From a virus: DNA of 64,000 nucleotides. How positions within the stretch are numbered: the first letter of the stretch is position 1; each line of letters starts with the position of its first letter. Below the pieces are notes generated by a model. That model had not been told where the DNA came from, did no database searches, and saw only the letters and a program-made list of their open reading frames with translations. This document shows positions 1 to 16,856 of this stretch, piece after piece. The DNA is taken from IMG/VR virus record IMGVR_UViG_3300037348_000049, positions 1 through 64,000 of that record, one strand, 5' to 3'. The position numbers were made by a program, and so were the translations under genes.

Positions 1-56
1 CTGAACCAACTGAACCAACTGAACCAACTGAACCAACTGAACCAACTGAACCAACC
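1..56 (+). repeat. 9-bp tandem repeat coding for (Glu-Pro-Thr)n
   Basis: The unit GAACCAACT is repeated five times from position 3 and a sixth copy ends in C instead of T. Read in the frame of the downstream gene it codes for Glu-Pro-Thr repeats. The array is cut by the window edge, so its full length is unknown. The repeat length is a multiple of three, so copy-number change would keep the reading frame. Confidence 0.9.
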
Positions 57-1673
57 GCGAAAGCTAAGCCCGCTAAGCCCGCTAAGCCCGCTAAGCCCGT
101 TCCAAAAACGGTAGATGATACCAGAGAGTTGCCTACTACTAAAGAAGAGCCACCTCTACTTCCGCCAACTAATACTACAGAAGGCCCGCCTAAAGATAGG
201 ATCGACGACGGCGGCGACATTGTGCACAGTCCTATAACTGATGAAGAGCGCACCGAGGCAATTAGAAAAAAGATACCTGCCTTCATAACTAAAATGGGAC
301 GCATACTAGAATACTTTGACAATAACGGAAAGAGGAAGCAAGCTTCCGACCCGTTTGAGCTACTGAACTCGCTAGCCGAAGCGTATCCAAACGCTAAATT
401 TACTCCCGAGGGCGACGCGCTAATTCTCGATCGCAGAATAGACAGCGACGGTAGGGTTTTTGAGCTCAGGGCATCTAATACTGGGTCTAAGGCCTTAGTC
501 TACTCCATGAATTGGACTGACCCCGAGACTGGCAAAGTTGAAACTCTAATTCACTACGACAAGCGTCACTCTATAACATCAGTCTTTAGGAAAGACAACT
601 CCTCGGATGGTCTGATGGCTAAACTACTCAGCGTTGAGCCATTGAAGCAGGGAAATGCTTCACCTATTCCTGGTTTCGGCGAGGCCTCTCTCAGAGAGCG
701 TGCTGAGTGGTACAAGATGAAGCAGAAAATGTTTACCCCAGAAGGTCTTGCAACTTTCTATGGCAATGGCCGTCCAAAGATTTTCCACAAAGACAAGGGC
801 ACATTCAAGCACCGAGACGTACTTAGTATTTGGGAAGCTTACCCTGAGTACAAGGACGATCCTAGCGACCCTGAGCTGAAAGACGCCATATATCACGGTC
901 TACTTGGAGTATTTGGAAGATTGCCTATTGACCCACGTGTCCACAGGGAAGCTAGAAGGCAATTAAGATTAGAGTTTAGAAAGCGTTTCCCTAAAGAAAA
1001 CGCTCGCAAGATGGGTGCACTAATTACTAATGCCTCTAGGATGTCTATGGGCAAAACATACGATCTAGACCCCGATACTAAAGCTAACCCTTATGCATCA
1101 AAGAACCGTGTCACCCCTATCGAGCCGGGTCAGATTGTGGAGTACACAAACAACAAGGAAGAGCTAATAAACCTTGTAGTTACTGGCTACGCACCAAACG
1201 TCAACGTTAGCCCGGGCAATGAAGGCTACGATTACAACGACTTTATATACCTAAAAGATGCCGATGGAAAAACTGTACGTCTTAACGCCATACAGTTGAG
1301 GATACTAAAAAACCAGGACACCCCCTTAACTAAATATAGTCCAAATATTGAAGGTAAAGAGCTACGGGATCATCGAGCAAAACTTGGATTCTATGACGAT
1401 TCATCCACCGACAGACCTAATAACCCAACAGGTGTTGACACGTTTGCTGGAGAGCCCGACGCCCCGTTACCAGGTGTTATAGATGATCTAGAGCCTGGAG
1501 ACGTGCTTCCTAACCTAAATGGTGAAGGCATTCTTGGGGAGATTATATCCTCTAGGTTTGTTAGAGGCAAAGATGACGAAGAAGGAATTGCGTTTACGGT
1601 AGTAACTGATAGCGGTGAGACTAAAATCGTAGTGTATGCTCTTGGTAAAGAGATACCACCAAAAAAAGACTAG
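3..1673 (+). CDS. head-associated polyprotein, N-terminus beyond left edge
   Basis: The reading frame is open from position 3 through both 9-bp repeats, so the TTG at 129 is not the real start and the gene is cut by the window edge (at least 556 residues). The visible part has a low-complexity N-terminal linker (EPT then AKP repeats), then a mixed alpha/beta region with no fold I can name, and an acidic C-terminal region ending in PPKKD. Its place just ahead of the capsid protease and capsid genes suggests a minor head protein or the C-terminal part of a portal or MuF-type protein; that is inference. The gene ends at an A7 run followed by a GC-rich hairpin, and a -1 slip there would join it to the next reading frame. 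No catalytic motif is apparent in the visible part. Confidence 0.8.
   Translation, partial: EPTEPTEPTEPTEPTEPTAKAKPAKPAKPAKPVPKTVDDTRELPTTKEEPPLLPPTNTTEGPPKDRIDDGGDIVHSPITDEERTEAIRKKIPAFITKMGRILEYFDNNGKRKQASDPFELLNSLAEAYPNAKFTPEGDALILDRRIDSDGRVFELRASNTGSKALVYSMNWTDPETGKVETLIHYDKRHSITSVFRKDNSSDGLMAKLLSVEPLKQGNASPIPGFGEASLRERAEWYKMKQKMFTPEGLATFYGNGRPKIFHKDKGTFKHRDVLSIWEAYPEYKDDPSDPELKDAIYHGLLGVFGRLPIDPRVHREARRQLRLEFRKRFPKENARKMGALITNASRMSMGKTYDLDPDTKANPYASKNRVTPIEPGQIVEYTNNKEELINLVVTGYAPNVNVSPGNEGYDYNDFIYLKDADGKTVRLNAIQLRILKNQDTPLTKYSPNIEGKELRDHRAKLGFYDDSSTDRPNNPTGVDTFAGEPDAPLPGVIDDLEPGDVLPNLNGEGILGEIISSRFVRGKDDEEGIAFTVVTDSGETKIVVYALGKEIPPKKD
63..98 (+). repeat. 9-bp tandem repeat coding for (Ala-Lys-Pro)n
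   Basis: Four exact copies of GCTAAGCCC follow the first repeat directly and are in the same reading frame, giving Ala-Lys-Pro repeats. Together with the acidic EPT array this makes an acidic-then-basic disordered linker ahead of the folded part of the protein. Confidence 0.88.
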
Positions 1674-1690
1674 CCCCCAATCAGGGGGGC
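1661..1690 (+). promoter_or_regulatory. candidate -1 programmed frameshift signal (A7 plus hairpin)
   Basis: The last sense codons of the upstream frame are CCA CCA AAA AAA GAC TAG, so 1661-1667 is an A AAA AAA heptamer in the correct X XXY YYZ phase. A spacer of 5 nt follows, then a 6-bp stem (1673-1678 with 1685-1690, GCCCCC/GGGGGC, loop about 6 nt). The -1 frame is open from 1649 to the end of the next gene at 4354. Heptamer phase, spacer and hairpin all match the standard layout of bacterial and phage -1 frameshift sites. The main alternative is one A missing from the assembly, which would make a single fused gene. Confidence 0.6.
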
Positions 1691-1789
1691 GGTAGCCCAG
1701 AAGGGACTAACGATGGATCAGGACCAGGAGCCGAAAGTGACCCAGGGGGATCGGGACCAGATGGCAAAAGTCTACCCTCAGGAGAGGGA

Positions 1790-4354
1790 GTGGACGGACG
1801 CGGAAATCGAGATGGCAAAAGCCCTTGGTCATCTCTAGATAGTCAACTACCCGAGGCAACTCGCGCTCAAGAGTTACGTGACTCTGGCTCATCTACTCCG
1901 GATTTATTTGAACTAGACCCTCAAAAAGACGCTGAGGCATTCCGAGACGCAATTCAGAAGCTAAAAGAGAGCAATAAATACTCAGCATCTGTCTATGTTT
2001 ACGATGTCGAAGAGTATCGTAACATGCGACTTTTCTCAACCGAAGATGGTACTGCTGGTATTGCACTGAAACCAGATGGCGACATTGTCTCCGGGTTTGT
2101 CTACGCTGACTCCCCACATAAAAGAGCCATCTCATCTATGCTGTCTCAAATGGTCGAGCTTGGCGGCGATCGTTTGGATGCTTTTGACACGGTACTACCA
2201 GGGATATACGCTAATTCTGGGTTCAAGCCAGTAGCCAGAGTTCGTTGGGACAATGAGTTCGCACCAGATGGCTGGGATAAAGAAACCTACAGTAAATTTA
2301 ATAATGGTGAACCAGATGTAGTAATTATGGCGTATGACTCAGATCGTGTCGGATCTGAGTACGACCCTACAGAAGGAGAAGTCTTTGATGACTATGATGC
2401 AGCCATGGAGGCCCGCAATACAGAGCTAGAGGAACTAAAAAAAGAAAAAGAGCCGGATCTTTCTCCTGACAATGAGTACGCTGATCCTGACCCCGGCCAC
2501 GCGGAGATCGAAGCAAATAAAGTTAAATTTGACAACAACCTATTCTATTCAGTTATGATTCCCCGAGTGCTGCTAGAAGATTTGAATGAGACAAGTGCTC
2601 TCGAAAATGATGAAGAAAATTTCATATACAAGCCGGGTAAATACATCCTAAAAGGTGATCGACTGAATGGGTTAATTTCTGCCATTGAGAACAGGATAGA
2701 ACTCTACCGTGACGACAGAGAAGGCTACTCTGATGTAGGACCTTCGGCCATCAGGGCCCTAAAAAACTTTAGAGTAGCTAGTAAAAACCCTGTAGACGCT
2801 ACGGCCGAAAAAGCACCTGCAAAAAATAAAAAGGATGAACGCCGCAAATTAGTCGACAAGCTTGTCGAAGCATCCTTCAATTTCTCGGAGACGGAAAATC
2901 TAGGACAGCTTTCGGAGGCAGAAGTCATAGAAAGTCGAACTGCTATGTGGCCGAATAGTAAAGCCTATTTAGAGAGAAAAATTGCGGAAGGTGGTGACTT
3001 CGACGGGTCACGTACTGCAAGATTAAAAAGAGGACTAGACGGCTTTATACAAGAAGGTCTAGACTCCCTGAGAGAGCTTAGGGAAGCAGAAAGAGCACTG
3101 GCCATATTTGACGGAGAATTAGCAGGGGAGCCAGAGAACGCTCCCGAAGCTCCCTCGATAGAGACAGGCTCGCCTGGCCCCGTCTCGAGAGAGCGTCCTT
3201 CTTTCGATGCAGGGATCTCTGACTTTGAGGTCGACGATAGCGAATTGGAGACCGGCGAAGAAGAGGACCTATCTTCCGCGGTGAAGCTTAAAAGGCTAAT
3301 AGCCAATAACCCTGGCCTCTCTAGATTTATAAATCGTATGGCTAAGGCTCCTGTGCGAAACCCAGTAAAAACGCTGCAGAGCGCAAGAGACCTGAAGAAA
3401 GCACTTGCGGACCTTGACGTGTCTGACTTTGAGGTAGAGGGGTTCACTCCAAGCGTAAGTCATTCAGGAATGAGTCGCTCTGACATAAACTTAATTAGGG
3501 ATAATCTTTCTGCTAATAATATAACCGTTTCCCCAGAAGAAGCAAGAGACCTGGCGGATATCCTCAACTACGTAATTAACTTTGAAGGTATGACCACCGA
3601 AGAAGCTGTTATAGCCGCACTAAAGAAAGACGGGATTAGATACTCTAACAAAAATAATATTGCCGTCAAATCTGTAGATCTCCCGATCACATTTGAAAAC
3701 GAAGATTCTAAAGAGTTACCGGATCCTAAGACGGCTATACTGGTTACCACTCCGAAAGAGACCAAAGATATTCTTGCTGCCATGGGCAAGATAAATGCTT
3801 TTTTTGAGAGTGAAGGATCGCTTCCGGGCACCTTAGATCCAAACGCTATCTCCATTAGAGTTGTGCCAAATCAAAATGCCTTCGACAACCTATACAACTT
3901 GTTAGACATAACAGAGACAGGTAGAATAAAATCTCGTGCTACCACTTTTGGTGCAAACATACCCAACCTTGTAGAGCTCCCAGTTGAAGAATACCTAGCC
4001 GGTAGAATTCCCCTAACCGACAACAGAGATCTGAGCAGCAACATCATACTAAACTTAAAGTTCCTCAGGGAATACGCAGATAAGACTAAATTTGAATCAG
4101 GTTCCAGAATTCAGGAAACATTAATCCACGAATTTGGCCACACTCTTCATCGATCCTTCGGCCTCAGTTGGGGTCGTAAAAAGACTGTCAGTAGTCTTGG
4201 CGAGTACTACAGCGTGTTCAAGCAATTTGTCTCGGATTACGGAACAACAAGCCCTAAAGAGCACTTTTCCGACTCGTTTTCGCAGTACCTCCTAACCGGT
4301 GATTCTCCCCAGGGGTGGAAAGCATTCATGAAATCTCAGGGTATACTTAAATGA
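1790..4354 (+). CDS. head-associated polyprotein with C-terminal zincin metalloprotease motif
   Basis: From the GTG at 1790 this is 854 residues. The frame is open back to 1649 without another start codon, and that upstream stretch codes for a Gly/Ser/Pro/Asp-rich linker that looks like real protein, so part or all of the product is probably made by -1 frameshifting from the upstream gene. GGAG at 1781-1784 could also support direct initiation. Residues about 40-180 resemble a GNAT-like fold (the GGDRLDAFD and YANSGFKPVAR pieces); the middle is charged and helical. The C-terminus has HEFGH (H780, E781, H784) and a downstream SPKEHFSDSF segment with E824 as a likely third zinc ligand, a pattern seen in lethal-factor-like metalloproteases appended to phage minor head proteins. 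A role in head maturation or as a protein injected with the DNA is inference. The end overlaps the next start by 4 nt. Confidence 0.75.
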   Translation: MDGRGNRDGKSPWSSLDSQLPEATRAQELRDSGSSTPDLFELDPQKDAEAFRDAIQKLKESNKYSASVYVYDVEEYRNMRLFSTEDGTAGIALKPDGDIVSGFVYADSPHKRAISSMLSQMVELGGDRLDAFDTVLPGIYANSGFKPVARVRWDNEFAPDGWDKETYSKFNNGEPDVVIMAYDSDRVGSEYDPTEGEVFDDYDAAMEARNTELEELKKEKEPDLSPDNEYADPDPGHAEIEANKVKFDNNLFYSVMIPRVLLEDLNETSALENDEENFIYKPGKYILKGDRLNGLISAIENRIELYRDDREGYSDVGPSAIRALKNFRVASKNPVDATAEKAPAKNKKDERRKLVDKLVEASFNFSETENLGQLSEAEVIESRTAMWPNSKAYLERKIAEGGDFDGSRTARLKRGLDGFIQEGLDSLRELREAERALAIFDGELAGEPENAPEAPSIETGSPGPVSRERPSFDAGISDFEVDDSELETGEEEDLSSAVKLKRLIANNPGLSRFINRMAKAPVRNPVKTLQSARDLKKALADLDVSDFEVEGFTPSVSHSGMSRSDINLIRDNLSANNITVSPEEARDLADILNYVINFEGMTTEEAVIAALKKDGIRYSNKNNIAVKSVDLPITFENEDSKELPDPKTAILVTTPKETKDILAAMGKINAFFESEGSLPGTLDPNAISIRVVPNQNAFDNLYNLLDITETGRIKSRATTFGANIPNLVELPVEEYLAGRIPLTDNRDLSSNIILNLKFLREYADKTKFESGSRIQETLIHEFGHTLHRSFGLSWGRKKTVSSLGEYYSVFKQFVSDYGTTSPKEHFSDSFSQYLLTGDSPQGWKAFMKSQGILK

Positions 4355-4596: not shown

Positions 4597-4989
4597 ATGG
4601 CTGAAGAGCAATTCGAACTTTCTGGCGACCCTACGATCTACTTCTACGTAGATAAGGAAACCGAGCAAGTAGATGGAATCTACATGTTTAGCATGTTTGG
4701 CATAATGGGCCGAATTAAGGGGGAAGACTGGGAGATAGCCTCTCGTGCAGAAGAGCCTCTGAACGGTTACATCACCTCTCCTGAAAAATATACGGTCTAC
4801 GCTTTTGACTGGGATACTGACATTCTTCTTGCAGAAGATTCTGACCCAGACGACGATGAAGAGTGGAACCCAGTAGTAATCCAAGCCTGGGGACGTGGCG
4901 AAGACCTCTCTGTAGACGACATCTCAGGGTTTAGCAGAGTAATTTCGGCCGGTGAATCGGTTGACCCCTCTGAAGTAACCCCATCTTAA
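4597..4989 (+). CDS. hypothetical protein in head region
   Basis: A 130-residue acidic protein, preceded by a weak AGGATC ribosome-site-like sequence. It is beta-rich in appearance with several Trp and Tyr residues and a run of Asp/Glu around residues 84-90. No known family is recognised. It lies 63 nt after the previous gene, behind a perfect inverted repeat, and 9 nt ahead of the capsid protease polyprotein, so a head-assembly or virion role is likely from context only. Confidence 0.7.
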   Translation: MAEEQFELSGDPTIYFYVDKETEQVDGIYMFSMFGIMGRIKGEDWEIASRAEEPLNGYITSPEKYTVYAFDWDTDILLAEDSDPDDDEEWNPVVIQAWGRGEDLSVDDISGFSRVISAGESVDPSEVTPS

Positions 4990-5001
4990 TAACGGAGTAT
5001 G

Positions 5002-8000
5002 ATGAGCACTAATCGTATGTACACTATCCCTGGCGGCGTTCAGAATGAAGCTAAAAAGGCTCTAAACTGGCGCAAGGAGGCCAAGCGAGGTGGCACACCG
5101 GTAGGAATTAATAGCGCGCGTACTCTTTCAAAGGGTGGTCAAATTGGTATCGAAAAAATTCGTCACATTGCTAAATACTTTCCTCGTCATGAGGTTGACA
5201 AGAAAGCAAAAGGCTATGAGCGCGGAGAAGATGGATTTCCATCTAACGGCCGCATTTCATGGGCTCTTTGGGGTGGGGACGCCGGGCAGAGATGGGCTTC
5301 TGCAATTGTAGAGCGTGAAAACAAAAGAGCCATCGCTGCAGGTGGATATGATCTATCTCATGGCGAATCCGATTACAGAGAAACGCCCCACTATGAGCCT
5401 GACCTCAGTGCGTTTAAGCAAGCCCACGAATTAGACCTATTCCTTGGGCCAGAATTCATGGTTCGTATACGTCTAGACAATTCTGGTATAGATCGTCTAT
5501 ATAAAATTGATGTTGATGGAATGGTATCCGTCTGGGACGACTGCGGCTGGGACGACATGGGCCACGTTGATGGTGATGTTTATTCATACGACCGAGCTTT
5601 AGATGCTGATATTGAAACTTCCGAGTTCGACCATGTAATAATAGACCCCTCTGCTGCGGTAATTATTTCAGCCTTTCTACAGGCTAGACCTAATCAGCCG
5701 GTTAGATTAGATGAGATAGACCCAGAAGAAACCAGGCTTGTAGCCGATGGTCTTATGGAAGAAGACTTTGTAATGATCGACAGGGTTATTACTGCTGCCG
5801 GGACCACAGATTCCCCTACAGATAAAGACGGTGACTTTACTCCTGAAGAAAGATCTAATCTAGCCAAAACTCAGCCGAGAGACGCTAGTGGGCTTTTTGT
5901 TAAGGTCGGCTCGCGAACTGTTGTTGGCGGAGACACAGAGCGAGGTTCTGGAGTAATTACCGGGATTGATTACGCGATGGGAAAAGTTAAGGTAAAACTT
6001 GACAGCGGAAAAGATATTTCCGTGGACTCTAAATTCACGCAAGGTGAAGACTCCGTTGAGGGGCCGATGCCAATTCCAAAAAACATCGCTCCCTTAGACC
6101 TCAGCGGTATCGTTGCCGAGCCCAGGACCCCAAGAAACTCTCCAATTGCTCGTCTACCCGGGACACTGCCAGTTTTGAGTGATAAAGATATTAATTCCAT
6201 TATTAATGATTTTCCATCATATGTAGCAAAAATGCGTAAGTCTTATAAAACTTATGATGACAAGCCTAAGGGTTTAAAGGCATATGACAAGAAATTAGTT
6301 AAAGAACGTCACGGTATAAACGCCGCCGCCACTGGTGACGTAGATCAGATTAACGACCCGTCGGAATCGGACGTCACTGCTAAATACTTAGCGATCGTGT
6401 CTCCTGACGACAAGGGTGCGGTAATGGATTTGATTGCAATTGTTCCTGCAGCAACAAGCTCTACGCAGCCGGAAATATACGAGCGCAAAGAGGGCAAGTG
6501 GCAGAGAAGTGAACAGCTTCTAATGGACTTAAAATCATCAACACCACCTCCCGTAGTCGAGCTTGATGATAAAAAAGTTCTAGACGATGTACTTAAGCAA
6601 GCTGACGAGGCTTCACCTATGCAGGCATCCGCATACGAATTCTCCATTTTCTGGGAAAGAGTAGTGGAGCCGTTGCTCTCAGCTGGTGGTGCTGACCGTA
6701 ACCGTGGTAATGCAGATGCACTTCGTCGCTACTGGACTAAGGGCAAGGGCGCAGCAAAAATCCGTTGGAACACTCCCGGTGATTGGACTCGCTGTGTTCG
6801 CCAGCTCTCTAAATACATGGGCCCACGCGCGAAGGGCTACTGCCAACTTCGCCACAAGGAAGTAACTGGTGTCTACACTGGAAGCGAAAAAAATGTTGGA
6901 AAGAGAAAGGGCTTAAAAGCTTCTACTTCTCTATTTGCAACTGAGAAAGAATTTGATTCAGCAGTCTTTGAAAAGTCTCGTCTAGCAGCAATAGCATCCG
7001 ATGCGCGTGAAAAGGTTGCTCTAATCGCTGATGCTTCCTATGGTAAGTCCGGGGCTGAATTCTACATACCTCTGATTGTGCCTGAAGAAGCCGAATCTGG
7101 TGATGGTAGAAAATTTAAAAAAGGCTCGATAAGCGTACGTGACTTACCGATCCCGCTTCTTTGGCAGATTAAAACTGGTGCAGGCCACGATGGATCCGTA
7201 GTTGTAGGTCGAATTGACTACGTTGAAAGGATTGAGGGAGGTGTTGGAAACGCTCGTGGTGTTTTTGATTCCGGCCCTTACGGTCGCGAGGCAGAGAGAT
7301 TAGTTAGATATGGTTTCTTGCGTGGAGTCTCCGTGGATTTAGATCAATTTGAGGCACAAGAAAACAAGAGCCCAAAGACTGAAAACTCTGAAGATGGCGA
7401 AGTTATGGGCAAGGATAAATTAACCATAAACAAGGCCCGTATTATGGCTGCTACAATTGTAGCTAAGCCTGCATTTCAGGAGTGCAGCATATCATTGCAA
7501 GAACAAGGGGAGCAGGAGTACGAAGTGACCCCTAAAGATGGCATATATGAAGAATGCATTGACGGTTTTTGCGACCTTGAACCAATCATGGCTTCTGGGT
7601 ACCTGGAATCCGAGATTCCAATGGCACCACCTGCCCAATGGTTTGCTGACCAGAAACTTCTCAAGCCAACGCCACTAACTATAGATAAAGACGGTCGTGT
7701 CTACGGACACATAGCCGCGTGGCACATTAGCCACATTGGACTGCCACGCTCAACTAAGCCTCCTCGATCTCGTAGCAAGTACGCATACTTCAACACTGGA
7801 GTAGTTAGTACTGCCGAGGGCACTGATGTCACTGTTGGTCAACTAACCCTTGCTGGTGGCCATGCTCCACTAAATGCGGACGCCTCATCTGCTGCCAGAC
7901 ATTACGACGACACCGCCTCAGCTATTGCAGATGTACATGCTGGCGAGGATCAGTTTGGTATTTGGGTATCTGGCTGCTTGCGTCCAGACGCTGATGAAAT

Positions 8001-9363
8001 GCAGATACGAGCACTTCGCGCCTCAGCACCTTCTGGGGACTGGCGTCCAATTAATGGGTCCTTAGAACTGGTTGCTGTTTGTCAAGTTAACGTTCCTGGA
8101 TTCCCTACTGCACGTGCAATGATTGCATCCGGCAAAATATTCGCGCTTGTTGCCGCTGGAGCTAGCCACATGGCAGTACTAAAAAGCCAAGCAGTTCAGA
8201 CGTTATCTCAGAAAGCAAACACTCTAGGTCAGCTCGCCGCTACTGCTCCAGACCTAAAGATGAGAGTAAGGGCTGCCAAGAAATCTCTTCGCGAGGCCAA
8301 TCTAGAGGCAATAACCGCTAGCGCTACCCTGATGAAGGAAAAATCACTAATTGCGGCTGCCGTATCAGAGCTGGCTAAGATCCCAAGTGATCTAAGGATG
8401 GAGTTAGCAGAAAAGGGCTACGCCATGAAAGATGGCTCTTACCCCATTCGTGACACTTCTGATTTACAAAACTCCATTAAAGCGTACGGAAGAGCAAAAG
8501 ACTCTGAGAAATCCGCAGTGCGTAAGCACATAACTAAGCGTGCTCGTCAATTAAAGGGATTTAGTATGATTCCTCAGGGATGGGCTTATGCAAACTCTAC
8601 GGAAGCAGCCGACAAGGTTGACTTAATGCGTAGATCAATCACTGCCGCAGCAAATTCTGATTGTGGTTGCGACTTACCTGTTGAAACAGTGGTGGCTGCT
8701 GTCCCGAAAGATGAAATCTCTGAAACTGAGCTAAAGAAGCTAAAAGACGCAAAGTCTGAAGCCGACAAGCAAACCGAAAAAGAGATTGAAGCAGCTAAAG
8801 CAGTCAAATCTGGTAAGGCGGACATTGAGGATCTAGATGAGGACGGTAAGCCTAAATACGTTTCTGGTGTAAACCAGCCACGTGACGCAAAAGGTAAGTA
8901 CCGCACAGTTCTAGCTCGCCTAAAACAGAACTTAGGTGTTGCAGGTCTGGCAAAAGCATTGAAAAAAGCTGAAGATGCTGAAAACCTAGACTTTGCTGGT
9001 GACTATCGGGCTTCTGCGGACGCAAGCGGCGAGCTGATCGGCATGATCGACCGAATTGACTCAAAAGCCTTAAATTCAGAAGCGTTGGAGAATGTTCGCG
9101 CAACTGCCGGAGAGTTGGGCAAGGTTATTTCGAATCTGCCCCTGCCTTTCGGTAAGGACGCAGAAAAACTAAAGTTTAGCGATCTACCGTTTGGACTAAA
9201 GGATTTAATCAAGAAAATGATTACCCGAGTCGAGGCAAAAATCGGTAAAGAGGATGCAAATATTGCTACGCAAAGTTTGAAATCCTACATGTCGGGTGCA
9301 GATCTGTACTCTCAGGGTGAAGTTCAATCTGAGATGAGCAAGTTGCTCCGACTCCTTACCTAA
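5002..9363 (+). CDS. capsid maturation protease polyprotein
   Basis: I place the start at the ATG at 5002 because GGAG at 4994-4997 is 4 nt away; the ATG at 4999 is too close. The product is 1453 residues, far longer than a usual prohead protease of 150-300. Segments in order: residues 1-110, an N-terminal domain found in actinophage head proteins (YFPRHEVDK, GRISWALWGGD); about 290-320, a KOW-like stretch after QPRDASG; about 575-620, the GAAKIRW...GDWTRCV domain; about 685-850, the protease, with H729 (GHDGS) and S777 (GVSVD) as likely catalytic residues; about 885-1050, a domain with GHIAAWH and SGDWRPI; about 1140-1200, the DGSYPIRD...AVRKHI domain; and about 1290-1453, a helical C-terminus starting QPRDAKGKY and ending LRLLT. 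It probably cleaves scaffold during head maturation while other segments act as internal head proteins. The downstream neighbour is the scaffold-capsid fusion it would process. Confidence 0.85.
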   Translation: MSTNRMYTIPGGVQNEAKKALNWRKEAKRGGTPVGINSARTLSKGGQIGIEKIRHIAKYFPRHEVDKKAKGYERGEDGFPSNGRISWALWGGDAGQRWASAIVERENKRAIAAGGYDLSHGESDYRETPHYEPDLSAFKQAHELDLFLGPEFMVRIRLDNSGIDRLYKIDVDGMVSVWDDCGWDDMGHVDGDVYSYDRALDADIETSEFDHVIIDPSAAVIISAFLQARPNQPVRLDEIDPEETRLVADGLMEEDFVMIDRVITAAGTTDSPTDKDGDFTPEERSNLAKTQPRDASGLFVKVGSRTVVGGDTERGSGVITGIDYAMGKVKVKLDSGKDISVDSKFTQGEDSVEGPMPIPKNIAPLDLSGIVAEPRTPRNSPIARLPGTLPVLSDKDINSIINDFPSYVAKMRKSYKTYDDKPKGLKAYDKKLVKERHGINAAATGDVDQINDPSESDVTAKYLAIVSPDDKGAVMDLIAIVPAATSSTQPEIYERKEGKWQRSEQLLMDLKSSTPPPVVELDDKKVLDDVLKQADEASPMQASAYEFSIFWERVVEPLLSAGGADRNRGNADALRRYWTKGKGAAKIRWNTPGDWTRCVRQLSKYMGPRAKGYCQLRHKEVTGVYTGSEKNVGKRKGLKASTSLFATEKEFDSAVFEKSRLAAIASDAREKVALIADASYGKSGAEFYIPLIVPEEAESGDGRKFKKGSISVRDLPIPLLWQIKTGAGHDGSVVVGRIDYVERIEGGVGNARGVFDSGPYGREAERLVRYGFLRGVSVDLDQFEAQENKSPKTENSEDGEVMGKDKLTINKARIMAATIVAKPAFQECSISLQEQGEQEYEVTPKDGIYEECIDGFCDLEPIMASGYLESEIPMAPPAQWFADQKLLKPTPLTIDKDGRVYGHIAAWHISHIGLPRSTKPPRSRSKYAYFNTGVVSTAEGTDVTVGQLTLAGGHAPLNADASSAARHYDDTASAIADVHAGEDQFGIWVSGCLRPDADEMQIRALRASAPSGDWRPINGSLELVAVCQVNVPGFPTARAMIASGKIFALVAAGASHMAVLKSQAVQTLSQKANTLGQLAATAPDLKMRVRAAKKSLREANLEAITASATLMKEKSLIAAAVSELAKIPSDLRMELAEKGYAMKDGSYPIRDTSDLQNSIKAYGRAKDSEKSAVRKHITKRARQLKGFSMIPQGWAYANSTEAADKVDLMRRSITAAANSDCGCDLPVETVVAAVPKDEISETELKKLKDAKSEADKQTEKEIEAAKAVKSGKADIEDLDEDGKPKYVSGVNQPRDAKGKYRTVLARLKQNLGVAGLAKALKKAEDAENLDFAGDYRASADASGELIGMIDRIDSKALNSEALENVRATAGELGKVISNLPLPFGKDAEKLKFSDLPFGLKDLIKKMITRVEAKIGKEDANIATQSLKSYMSGADLYSQGEVQSEMSKLLRLLT

Positions 9364-9470
9364 AAAGTAGGGTAAAATTATCCCTAGGTGGAGCGCCTCT
9401 CGTTTTTACGCAGAGTCCCTCGGCCTTGACTGTAATCAAGGATGCTAGACATCCAAAAATAACTGGCCTA

Positions 9471-9476
9471 GGAGGT
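9471..9476 (+). promoter_or_regulatory. ribosome binding site deciding the capsid gene start
   Basis: GGAGGT lies 3-4 nt before the in-frame GTG at 9480. The longer alternative, TTG at 9426, has no purine-rich sequence in front. I therefore prefer GTG 9480, although the short spacing keeps this uncertain. Confidence 0.5.
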
Positions 9477-9479
9477 ACA

Positions 9480-11627
9480 GTGTACGACCAGATAAAGACT
9501 CAGCTAGATGCAATTTCTGAGCTTGGTGACGAACAAGTCGCAGAGCTACAAGCAGACATCATCTCGCAGTTTGAAATGGTTGAGGGTGAAGACCCGACTC
9601 CTGAGACAGTTGATGCTATGACGTTACTAGCTGACTCTCTAGACATGGTACGCGGAGAACTATCAAACCGCGAAGCTCAGACTGCAGAACTTGCAGCCCG
9701 TGCTGCTGAAGCTACTGCCCGTGTCAAGGGTGGAGCAGAGGACGTCGGAGAGGAAATGGCCATGACCGAAGATGAGCCTATGGTAGAGGAAGCCCCTATG
9801 GAAGAAACTCCAGAAGAGGTAACCCCTGAGACCGAGGTAGAGGCAGAGGAAATGCCAGCCGAAGAAGAGGAAAAGGAAGAGGAAGAAGAAGAGATGTCAA
9901 TTAAGGCATCCGCTTCTGACGAGACCTCCCTCGAGGCTGCAGGAGACGCCGTTGTCGAAGAGACTACAACCGAAACTGAACTTTCTACCGAAGAGGTAGC
10001 AGAAGTTGTAGTTGAAGAAGCTGTCGCAGAGACTTCAGTCGAGACTGAGGCTGCCATCGAAGAAATCACTGAAGCTACAACCGATACCGAAGCAGAGTTC
10101 TCTGCTGAGGGAGAAGTTGTTACCGAAGAGGTTATCGAGGTTGTCGAGGACGCCACAATCGAAGCATCAACTAATCAGGTAGACGGTTCTGAACTATCAA
10201 CCCCAACCGAAGAATCCGCCGAACTATCTACAGAGGAGACTGCAGAAGCAGTTGCCGAAGTGGTAGAAGAAGCAGAGCTTTCGTCAGAAGAAATTATTGA
10301 AACATCAACAGCTCTCGTAGAAGAGCAGAAGGAGCAGGCAGTGACCGCTGCAGCTGAACAGCCTTTCGAGGCCCCAGCCGACCGTCAACCAGTAGTTCGG
10401 GTAACAGAGGCTCCAGTGGCAATCACTGCTGGCGCTGACATTCCTGGATACACCGCGGGAAGCACTATTAATAGCATGTCTGATGTTGCTCAGGCCATGG
10501 AAAAGAGACTTCACTCTCTTCGCCGTGTAAACGGTGGCGACGGAGAGCAGCACATTGTTGCATCTTTCACCACACAGTACGCAGAAGACCGCATATTGTC
10601 CTCAGACCCTCTAGAGAACGCTGCAAAGATTGAGGCTGTAACTTCCTCAGAAGCACTTATTGCTTCTGGTGGACACGCTGCCCCAGCCGAAGTCCGCTAT
10701 GAGGTCTACAGCATTGGTGGCACCACCGCACGTCCAGTTCGTGACGCACTTCCTGCGTTCCAGGCTGACCGTGGTGGCGTTCGCTTCGTAACTCCTCCAA
10801 TCCTGTCTGCTCACGCAGATGCTGTTGGTGTATGGACTGCTGCTACTGACGCTACCCCAGGTGGCGCAACAAAAGCTAGCCTTACCGTTGTTGCTGCTGG
10901 AGAAAACGTAGTATCAACTGACGCTGTAACTCTACAGATGCAGTTCGGTAACCTAATGACTCGCGCGTACCCAGAGTTGATCGCTCGTCACAACGAGCTT
11001 GGTCTAACTCAGCACGCACGCGAGGCAGAGGTTAACTTGCTGTCCGCTATTGGTGCAGCATCAACCTCTATCACTACCACCTCACTAATCGGCTTTGGTC
11101 GCGACTTCCTAGTCCAGATCCGCCGTGCAGCAGCTGGTTACCGTAGCCGTCACCGCCTATCGCCAGACGCTCGCCTAAAGGCAATCGTCCCAGCTTGGGT
11201 GTATGACGCAATGTCCGCTGACTTGACTCTGTCAATGCCAGGCGACGGAACCCTAGGTGTCGGCCAGTCCGAGATCAACGGTTACCTAGCCGGTGCAAAC
11301 GTCGACCTAATTGCATCTCTTGATGCAGGCGCTTTTGGCGCACAGGCTACGGGCGTTATGACCGAGTTCGCAGACAGCTTCGACTGGTACCTATTCGCCG
11401 AAGGAACATTCTTGTTCCTAGACGGAGGTACCCTGGACCTCGGAATCATCCGCGACTCCAGCCTGGTCGGCACCAACGACTACAAGATGTTCGTTGAGAC
11501 CTTCGAGAACGTTGCCAAGGTTGGCATCGAATCTCTAAAGGTAACTTCAACCATCTCGGTCAACGGTGTAGCCGCTGCCCTACGCGACACCACTGGTGGC
11601 GCTGCTGCAGCTGCAATCGAGCTCTAA
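9480..11627 (+). CDS. scaffold-major capsid protein fusion
   Basis: From GTG 9480 the product is 715 residues (733 from TTG 9426). Residues 1-70 are helical. Residues about 90-290 form a very acidic, Glu/Val/Thr/Ala-rich low-complexity region that resembles a scaffolding delta-domain. From about residue 325 to the end is an HK97-fold-like major capsid domain, with the PVRDALPAFQADRGG...VRFVTPP stretch and a C-terminal fold typical of actinophage capsid proteins. Fusing scaffold to capsid is known in HK97-type phages, and the upstream protease would remove the N-terminal part during maturation. The C-terminal half has codon use biased to C/G-ending codons compared with neighbours, as expected for a highly expressed protein. 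A strong hairpin follows the stop. Confidence 0.88.
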   Translation: MYDQIKTQLDAISELGDEQVAELQADIISQFEMVEGEDPTPETVDAMTLLADSLDMVRGELSNREAQTAELAARAAEATARVKGGAEDVGEEMAMTEDEPMVEEAPMEETPEEVTPETEVEAEEMPAEEEEKEEEEEEMSIKASASDETSLEAAGDAVVEETTTETELSTEEVAEVVVEEAVAETSVETEAAIEEITEATTDTEAEFSAEGEVVTEEVIEVVEDATIEASTNQVDGSELSTPTEESAELSTEETAEAVAEVVEEAELSSEEIIETSTALVEEQKEQAVTAAAEQPFEAPADRQPVVRVTEAPVAITAGADIPGYTAGSTINSMSDVAQAMEKRLHSLRRVNGGDGEQHIVASFTTQYAEDRILSSDPLENAAKIEAVTSSEALIASGGHAAPAEVRYEVYSIGGTTARPVRDALPAFQADRGGVRFVTPPILSAHADAVGVWTAATDATPGGATKASLTVVAAGENVVSTDAVTLQMQFGNLMTRAYPELIARHNELGLTQHAREAEVNLLSAIGAASTSITTTSLIGFGRDFLVQIRRAAAGYRSRHRLSPDARLKAIVPAWVYDAMSADLTLSMPGDGTLGVGQSEINGYLAGANVDLIASLDAGAFGAQATGVMTEFADSFDWYLFAEGTFLFLDGGTLDLGIIRDSSLVGTNDYKMFVETFENVAKVGIESLKVTSTISVNGVAAALRDTTGGAAAAAIEL

Positions 11628-16125: not shown

Positions 16126-16461
16126 ATGGCTGAAATGAAAGATTTTGGTAGCAATTTTGTAGGAGAAAAAGAATCCCCCAAGTTTAAGTTGCATGGGGAA
16201 GAGTTTGAGTGCGTTAAAGCTATTCAAGGAAAAGTTCTTCTAAACCTAACAGCTAAAGTAGCAAGCGAAGATCCCGCAGAGCAAGCAGCGATGATTACTG
16301 GATTCTTTAAAGATGTTCTTATCTCAGAGAGCTATGAACGCTTTGATGCCTTGCTCGATAGCAAAGATAAAATTGTAACCGTAGAGGCTCTTGGAGAGAT
16401 TGTTGGCTGGATAACTGGTCAGTTGACGGCACGCCCGGAAGAGCAGCCAAAGGTCTCCTAA
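16126..16461 (+). CDS. tail assembly chaperone, short form (G-like)
   Basis: A 111-residue acidic, helical protein just before an out-of-frame ORF and the tape measure gene, the standard place and size of the lambda G-type chaperone. The -1 frame is open from 16371, overlapping its last 30 codons, so a fraction of ribosomes can shift to make the longer form. The protein coats the tape measure during tail assembly and is absent from the finished virion in known systems. Confidence 0.82.
   Translation: MAEMKDFGSNFVGEKESPKFKLHGEEFECVKAIQGKVLLNLTAKVASEDPAEQAAMITGFFKDVLISESYERFDALLDSKDKIVTVEALGEIVGWITGQLTARPEEQPKVS
16447..16453 (+). promoter_or_regulatory. candidate -1 frameshift site of tail chaperones
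   Basis: Near the end of the short form the zero-frame codons are CAG CCA AAG GTC TCC TAA. AAG can re-pair as AAA in the -1 frame, giving a GCCAAAG-type site 9 nt before the stop. It is not a perfect X XXY YYZ heptamer, because CCA would re-pair on GCC. A CCCGGAA alternative lies at 16434-16440. The shift itself is well supported by frame overlap; the exact site is not. Confidence 0.5.
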
Positions 16462-16856
16462 CCTGGGCAGTCGATCTTTGGCACTACGTGAATGGAAAAG
16501 CCCTAACAATGAAAATAGACCTCAAGGAAATGAACGGAGAAGACATGTGCGACGTTTTGCACTACTTCTTTGAAGAGGACACCCACTACCAAAGTGGGGA
16601 GGAAGCCGAATCTGTGTCTAAGATGCGCACTGGGCTTTATGAATTGTATGGAATGCCATACAACTATGCAGTAGATAGCTCTGGTTCTAGTGCCGGCTCT
16701 GGTGGTCGTCAGTATATTAATGATCACGAAGATCTAGGCTTCCAGGATCCAGCTACAACAAAGTACATAAGCAAAGGTTTCACCCCTGCAACTGATGTTA
16801 AGGGTGAATCACTAGCACCATTTGGTGCACTACTAGACCCCCCTATCGGTGGATAA
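16449..16856 (+). CDS. tail assembly chaperone extension (T part, frameshift product)
   Basis: This is the -1 frame part of the long chaperone. The only late start, GTG 16488, has no ribosome site, and the residues before it (LLTWAVDLWHYVNGKALTM) read as genuine protein, so expression by frameshift from the short form is much more likely. The part beyond the slip includes an acidic helix pair (CDVLHYFFEEDTHY) and a Gly/Ser-rich C-terminus. Predicted fusion runs from 16126 to 16856, followed 16 nt later by the tape measure gene. Confidence 0.78.
   Translation, partial: KGLLTWAVDLWHYVNGKALTMKIDLKEMNGEDMCDVLHYFFEEDTHYQSGEEAESVSKMRTGLYELYGMPYNYAVDSSGSSAGSGGRQYINDHEDLGFQDPATTKYISKGFTPATDVKGESLAPFGALLDPPIGG

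Follow-up and report, generated by a model that had tools for sequence, protein, structure and literature searches.

The first 64,000 bases of the 129,571-bp IMG/VR virus record IMGVR_UViG_3300037348_000049 (hereafter the window, the whole stretch that was analysed) almost certainly contain a conserved programmed -1 ribosomal frameshift at the 3' end of a large gene lying 5' of the major capsid gene. The frameshift very probably operates within a polyvalent (multi-effector) protein, which it would divide into two products. The initial annotation of this DNA had proposed it from a heptamer A AAA AAA in the correct phase, a spacer of 5 nucleotides (nt), a 6-bp GC-only stem and a -1 frame open for 895 codons, and each of these elements was found on the sequence as described.

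Frame 3 of the window ends in ATA CCA CCA AAA AAA GAC TAG. The heptamer is thus in X XXY YYZ phase just 5' of the stop codon of the upstream gene (the 0 frame), which is the arrangement of a programmed -1 ribosomal frameshift. An RNA structure is also present in the interval of ~5-9 nt past the slip site that is typical of such signals; its two arms pair positions 1673-1678 with 1685-1690. Taken alone, the 73-nt fold has a weak z-score (-0.79). Locus L002, which comes from another assembly, is 99.5% identical here and has the same run of seven A (A7), and its sole change in the signal falls in the hairpin loop; when the L002 signal is folded in a 48-nt window, no local L002 window is equally stable. 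The first -1-frame codon after the slip is AGA at 1667, and 895 residues are open up to the stop at 4352-4354.

Both the site and the coding of the trans-frame region are conserved, which is the evolutionary hallmark of a programmed -1 frameshift. An unbiased set of 80 loci was gathered by the major capsid protein, independently of the finding. Among those reaching far enough upstream, 23 have two long overlapping stop-to-stop open reading frames (ORFs), and the overlap is always -1, never +1. In 21 of these 23 there is an in-phase A AAA AAA or C CCA AAA whose last base stands 3-6 nt short of the end of the stop codon, and in nearly all of them a GC hairpin comes directly behind it. The two exceptions, L061 and L074, have no heptamer, carry their own start codon at the junction and behave as ordinary adjacent gene pairs. 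IMG/VR was also scanned with three patterns, all of which require a heptamer; genomes with and without the upstream homologue serve as built-in controls. Where the homologue is encoded, the open -1 frame spans 260-1000 codons unless a contig end cuts it, while in the unrelated genomes matched by the first two scans it nearly always closes before 110 codons (the longest being 134). The third scan added seven more contigs. Altogether, the capsid set and the scans yield ~38 contigs that carry the site besides the window's own record.

The third scan also returned many unrelated matches with a -1 frame open for ~84-88 codons, judged by eye to encode an immunoglobulin-like (Ig-like) domain. Because Ig-like extensions are a known class of phage frameshift (PMC5009743), these matches amount to an unplanned positive control. 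Nine unrelated contigs (L147, L148, L149, L151, L154, L159, L160, L161 and L164) share with the present phages the context CCCAAAAGCGTA(A/G)CCCCC, where it follows ORFs of ~280-330 codons and leads into -1 extensions of 84-88 codons that are Ig-like in look. In L144, another hit of the third scan, the -1 frame is open for 262 codons past a 533-codon ORF, in a genome that has no cassette of the kind described below.

Twenty-six distinct junctions were analysed, some of them found by the heptamer-requiring scans. In all 26 the upstream ORF (375-973 codons) contains exactly one in-phase A7 or C3A4 heptamer, namely the terminal one. A hairpin begins ~5-6 nt past the heptamer at nearly all of them, and at 24 of the 26 the region just past the slip exceeds 95% of local windows in stability. 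The C CCA AAA class preserves the outer stem GGGCTG/CAGCCC, and its inner stem is formed by quite different paired sequences in L011, L138, L130, L132 and L139. The MAFFT alignment of this second hairpin class is too gappy for a fair covariation count, which is why per-sequence folds and local-rank tests were used. In the alignment of the upstream protein, the proline-lysine pair at the slip is invariant.

The region past the stop codon evolves as protein in the -1 frame. Over 38-58 codons directly past the stop, 20 pairs of sequences give a ratio of non-synonymous to synonymous differences (pN/pS) of 0.35 in the -1 frame as against 0.90 in the 0 frame and 0.96 in the +1 frame; since the compared pairs share ancestry, the pooled values are illustrative and not a set of independent tests. 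The clearest pair, L126/L056, shows 20 synonymous versus 1 non-synonymous differences, and in L126 (on the same contig as L013) no possible -1 start codon is reached until 303 nt downstream. In the slip loci of the capsid set, no ATG close to the junction has a ribosome site; their first -1 starts are found 27-528 nt downstream, mostly more than 100. In the window, the segment between the slip and the GTG at 1790 had been taken for a real protein linker. It is indeed protein-coding, with a purifying signal of its own that is weak (L002/L019, synonymous divergence dS 0.59, non-synonymous divergence dN 0.29) and stronger in the relatives. A GTG at the place of 1790 is kept only in L002, L007 and L019.

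In three relatives, L014, L023 and L043, the whole protein is one ORF. These use CCT AAG or CCT AAT at the site, neither of which is slippery, so that the proline is kept in all three and the lysine in L014 and L023. The same gene therefore alternates between a programmed frameshift and a plain fusion. The initial annotation had held that related phages with one uninterrupted ORF would reveal an assembly error. Such relatives do exist, but they do not refute the frameshift because many others conserve the split and its signal.

Those single-ORF relatives, together with the 7-base homopolymer, are what speaks for a sequencing or assembly error in the A-run that breaks a true single ORF. We give this explanation practically no credence, since A7 is identical in the independent contig L002 and the homologous split recurs in ~38 contigs, including C CCA AAA sites without a long homopolymer. 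That the two frames are ordinary genes, the downstream one starting by itself (in the window at GTG 1790, which is preceded by the purine-rich GGAGAGGGA), is very improbable. The region 5' of 1790 is coding in the -1 frame, the first starts in relatives are often hundreds of nt inside the conserved -1 coding region, fused relatives exist, and independent initiation provides no reason for the heptamer and hairpin to be conserved. A7 runs can slip at a low level during transcription, and slippage by RNA polymerase might take the place of ribosomal slippage. Roughly one in two homologous slip sites, however, reads C CCA AAA, which fits tandem tRNA slippage and offers the polymerase only A4, and the downstream stem is kept at canonical spacing in both the A7 and the C CCA AAA classes; we consider a transcriptional origin extremely improbable.

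As to the -1 extension, the initial annotation recognised the protease and overlooked a GNAT-like domain that stands between the linker and the protease. The GNAT-like domain has 45-49% identity with the C-terminus of gp4, a minor capsid protein of VG15 type, in Microbacterium phages Caron and UtzChips, and with one domain of a 3125-amino-acid polyvalent protein in Limnohabitans phage DC33, a protein that also contains ART-PolyVal and LPD22 domains. The protease has an HExxH and a presumed downstream Glu ligand, the motif of lethal-factor-type (M34-like) enzymes. Among solved structures it comes nearest to lethal factor and PPEP-2, with scores below or near significance, and family-level significance for a lethal-factor-type protease is not reached (Pfam ATLF, 14.3 bits versus a cut-off of 27.4). 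The MPTase domain of polyvalent proteins was itself recognised through lethal factor as the nearest structure (PMC5512222). No curated Pfam PolyVal model matches the window extension above its cut-off. A fusion bearing GNAT-like and zincin domains 5' of the maturation protease and capsid genes has the size, context and domain types of a polyvalent protein.

Some observations on these domains may be added. In Caron gp4 (L003 3765-5342), which is of VG15 type, the GNAT-like domain is C-terminal and in frame, so that the domain has two unrelated partners among the head genes. The DC33 record (L004, PQ492659.1) is filed under Inoviridae despite its 39 kb and its 3125-amino-acid protein; the filing looks wrong. 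L002 is without an in-frame 687-nt block (229 codons) between the GNAT-like and protease domains (L002 6697-6706 versus window 2496-3172), with ~10 bases common at the junction. In L007 and L019 the entire protease part is missing and the extension is 261 amino acids long.

The ends of the IMG/VR record overlap by 127 bp, indicating a circular contig. The upstream gene is cut in the window because this circular genome was opened inside it; its first 447 residues are encoded at G000:C1 128229-129569 (L089 4229-5569). The complete upstream protein has 962 amino acids, the same as in L002. The fusion is therefore ~1,856 amino acids long (961 + 895), and the earlier figure of at least 1450 residues stands as regards a large fusion and gives way as regards its length. 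The 127-bp end overlap (window 1-127 / G000:C1 128229-129571, L089) sits in a tandem repeat coding for (EPT)n, whose repeat number differs between the window's record and L002.

The complete upstream protein belongs to no family in Pfam or PHROGs, and neither collection detects in it the MuF/VG15 domain that marks MuF-type minor head proteins. An AlphaFold model (predicted local distance difference test score, pLDDT, 62.7) contains small SH3/EF-P-like beta-barrels, and structure comparison found no confident or informative fold match for it. By this model the 0-frame product would be modular, with small beta-barrels and one alpha/beta region. Cultured Microbacterium phages, Arthrobacter phage Racecar and the lake-assembled DSL-LC01 have at this place one giant ORF (~1,650-3,290 codons), 5' of a small gene and the capsid-maturation protease, and in the cultured phages it adjoins the annotated portal gene. 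The upstream protein and the giant ORF of the Microbacterium phages and DSL-LC01 share a short N-terminal part. By synteny, the 0-frame product sits between the portal and the capsid-maturation protease. The partners had been called a minor head protein and a lethal-factor-like protease. Of this, a zincin with lethal factor as its best, albeit weak, structural match is retained, and so is synteny with giant head-region proteins; upstream, no family is recognised.

The cassette that follows the slip is not the same in all relatives. A second, sequence-unrelated family (L020, L026, L069, L077 and L084) has two modules, each ArdcN plus MPTase-PolyVal, well above the Pfam cut-offs, and L050 represents a third family, different again. 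The L132 extension has a PARP-like (ART-like) match. An HExxH occurs in nearly all families; most full-length extensions contain at least one, with L007, L019 and L050 lacking it. The cassettes turn over quickly compared with the capsid gene. Mapped against the capsid tree, their types are scattered, so the slip arrangement seems to have persisted through exchanges of cassettes.

We propose that most ribosomes end at the TAG and would release the 962-amino-acid short form, while some, aided by the stem-loop, would slip back one base on A AAA AAA and add the 895 amino acids of linker, GNAT-like domain and zincin protease of the lethal factor/MPTase type. The short part, to judge by synteny and the common N-terminus, would probably be the carrier into the head, and the extension would probably be delivered along with the DNA, as an effector or as a self-processing enzyme. 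The shift would then set how many copies carry the extension, much as Gag carries Pol. The sequences themselves show the slip site, its phase, the downstream structure, the conservation, the coding of the -1 product and the domain types. We infer that only a fraction of ribosomes shift, that the short form reaches the head and takes the extension along, that the extension enters the cell and has targets there, and that the ratio is important. Packaging of the protein in the head is likely. Delivery of an effector rationed by frameshifting is slightly favoured. We would call it an even bet that the scheme is shared, as a Gag-Pol of phages, by a large group of environmental phages with kinship to actinobacteriophages. 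In all of these the frameshift would determine how many copies of a head-packaged carrier bear an effector, one common slip signal being followed by interchangeable cassettes (metalloprotease, GNAT-like, ART-like, tandem ArdC), and counter-defence cargo would be dosed per virion by translation.

An alternative accepts the frameshift and takes the extension as an undelivered assembly or processing factor, its MPTase cleaving the head protein in maturation, and not as a rationed, injected effector. For P1 DdrB and other polyvalent proteins, autoprocessing by their MPTase domains has been proposed (PMC5512222), and a separate prohead protease is encoded next door. Tandem ArdC, GNAT-like and PARP-like domains, on the other hand, are counter-defence or effector types, and quick turnover of the cassettes relative to the capsid gene also speaks against this alternative. 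We regard this alternative as unlikely, though worth keeping in mind. Several further points, besides the shared ancestry of the compared pairs, weigh against rationed delivery of an effector by a programmed frameshift. Selection on the window's own linker is mild, and GTG 1790 with its purine-rich upstream stretch could permit some independent initiation in this phage. The match of the protease to lethal factor is weak (profile E 0.0034 over ~50 residues; Foldseek fold E 0.06). The label "head protein" rests on synteny because there is neither a database family nor a confident fold match. Finally, these are mostly uncultured phages known from sequence alone, in which the long product, its packaging and its delivery are predictions.

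The nearest precedent in phages would be the Ig-like extension, added by frameshift to coat or tail proteins of phages T3, A2 and PSA (reviewed in PMC5009743). As here, slippage where a virion gene ends provides some of the protein copies with an additional C-terminal domain, in-frame and frameshift versions exist side by side among relatives, and an identical CCCAAAAGCGTAACCCCC context is present in phages whose extensions appear Ig-like. The addition there is a small immunoglobulin-like domain, whereas here it is enzymatic modules of 260-1000 or more amino acids on a very large, probably internal protein. The nearest functional analogy would be retroviral Gag-Pol (PMC5009743), in which a -1 shift limits how much of an enzymatic part, with its protease, is borne by the structural part; the proteins are unrelated, the present case is a DNA phage, and its packaging and ratio are predicted. 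The lambda G/GT tail assembly chaperone (PMC5009743) also yields short and long forms in a set ratio by a -1 shift, but it is absent from the mature virion, and the gene position and the proteins are others.

Polyvalent proteins (Iyer et al. 2017, PMC5512222), which are thought to be delivered with the DNA, are likewise large and multidomain, often lie beside virion genes and include MPTase, ArdC-N, GNAT and ART domains. They differ in that frameshifting is nowhere mentioned in PMC5512222 and that the window extension reaches none of their Pfam models. DarB and DdrB of P1 are very large anti-restriction proteins packaged in the head, and no frameshift is described for them in PMC9024508. A short N-terminal capsid-targeting signal suffices for head entry of DarB, which is believed to enter the cell against restriction (PMC9024508); by analogy, the conserved N-terminus seen here would fit a head-targeting signal of the DarB type. 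In the literature searched, which may leave out subscription papers, no frameshift was found described for polyvalent proteins, for DarB-like proteins, or for ejection or internal head proteins.

Frameshifts in phages are known mainly for tail chaperones and for Ig-like domains on coat or tail proteins. In ~38 contigs, with three sequence-unrelated cassette families, the same device appears to govern a very large enzyme-bearing protein among head genes. This leads to the prediction that phages ration pre-packaged counter-defence enzymes by recoding. Gene callers would split or half-miss such proteins, and a heptamer, a stop codon and a GC hairpin 5' of the maturation protease could serve as a sequence tag for finding more of them.

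Table 1. Positions of the frameshift signal, its two coding frames and the adjoining genes in the window
Feature	Position	Strand	Remarks
Upstream 0-frame gene, 3' part	3-1673	+	remainder at far end of circular contig
Slippery heptamer A AAA AAA	1661-1667	+	in phase; A7 or CCCAAAA kept in relatives
-1 ORF, 895 amino acids; C-terminal extension gained by frameshifting	1667-4354	+	
Trans-frame linker, -1 frame	1667-1789	+	begins RLAPNQGGGSPEGTNDGSG; precedes every start codon of the -1 ORF
0-frame stop TAG	1671-1673	+	3 nt past heptamer
Stem-loop GCCCCC-AATCAG-GGGGGC	1673-1690	+	5-nt spacer from heptamer; probable frameshift stimulator
GNAT-like domain	1790-2416	+	homology to phage proteins (see text)
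Zincin-like metalloprotease domain	3398-4354	+	HEFGH 4127-4141; presumed third ligand Glu 4259-4261 (KEHFSDS)
Small gene, 130 amino acids, after cassette	4597-4989	+	same place as small genes in cultured relatives
1454-amino-acid head protein	4999-9363	+	homologous to annotated capsid maturation proteases (Microbacterium phage Cece gp70)
Major capsid protein	9426-11627	+	query for unbiased relatives

A near-DNA search of the phage collection with the window gave no match, and when genome contigs were scanned for the upstream alignment and for the capsid protein, no relative turned up. The phages are mostly uncultured and probably infect actinobacteria. In DSL-LC01 (L090 11804-16723) the maturation-protease region is annotated as three genes, which may reflect frame breaks in the record or real splits. 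Further along the window, just 5' of a 921-amino-acid ORF, a 111-amino-acid ORF (16126-16461) is overlapped by a -1 ORF (16371-16856) that is open across its stop. No X XXY YYZ heptamer stands right before that stop, and the pair is probably the usual tail assembly chaperone frameshift. Lastly, the maturation-protease protein contains two copies of a QPRDxxGxx motif that the upstream protein has near its N-terminus as a single copy (QPRDKKGRW); it is possibly a shared head-related motif.

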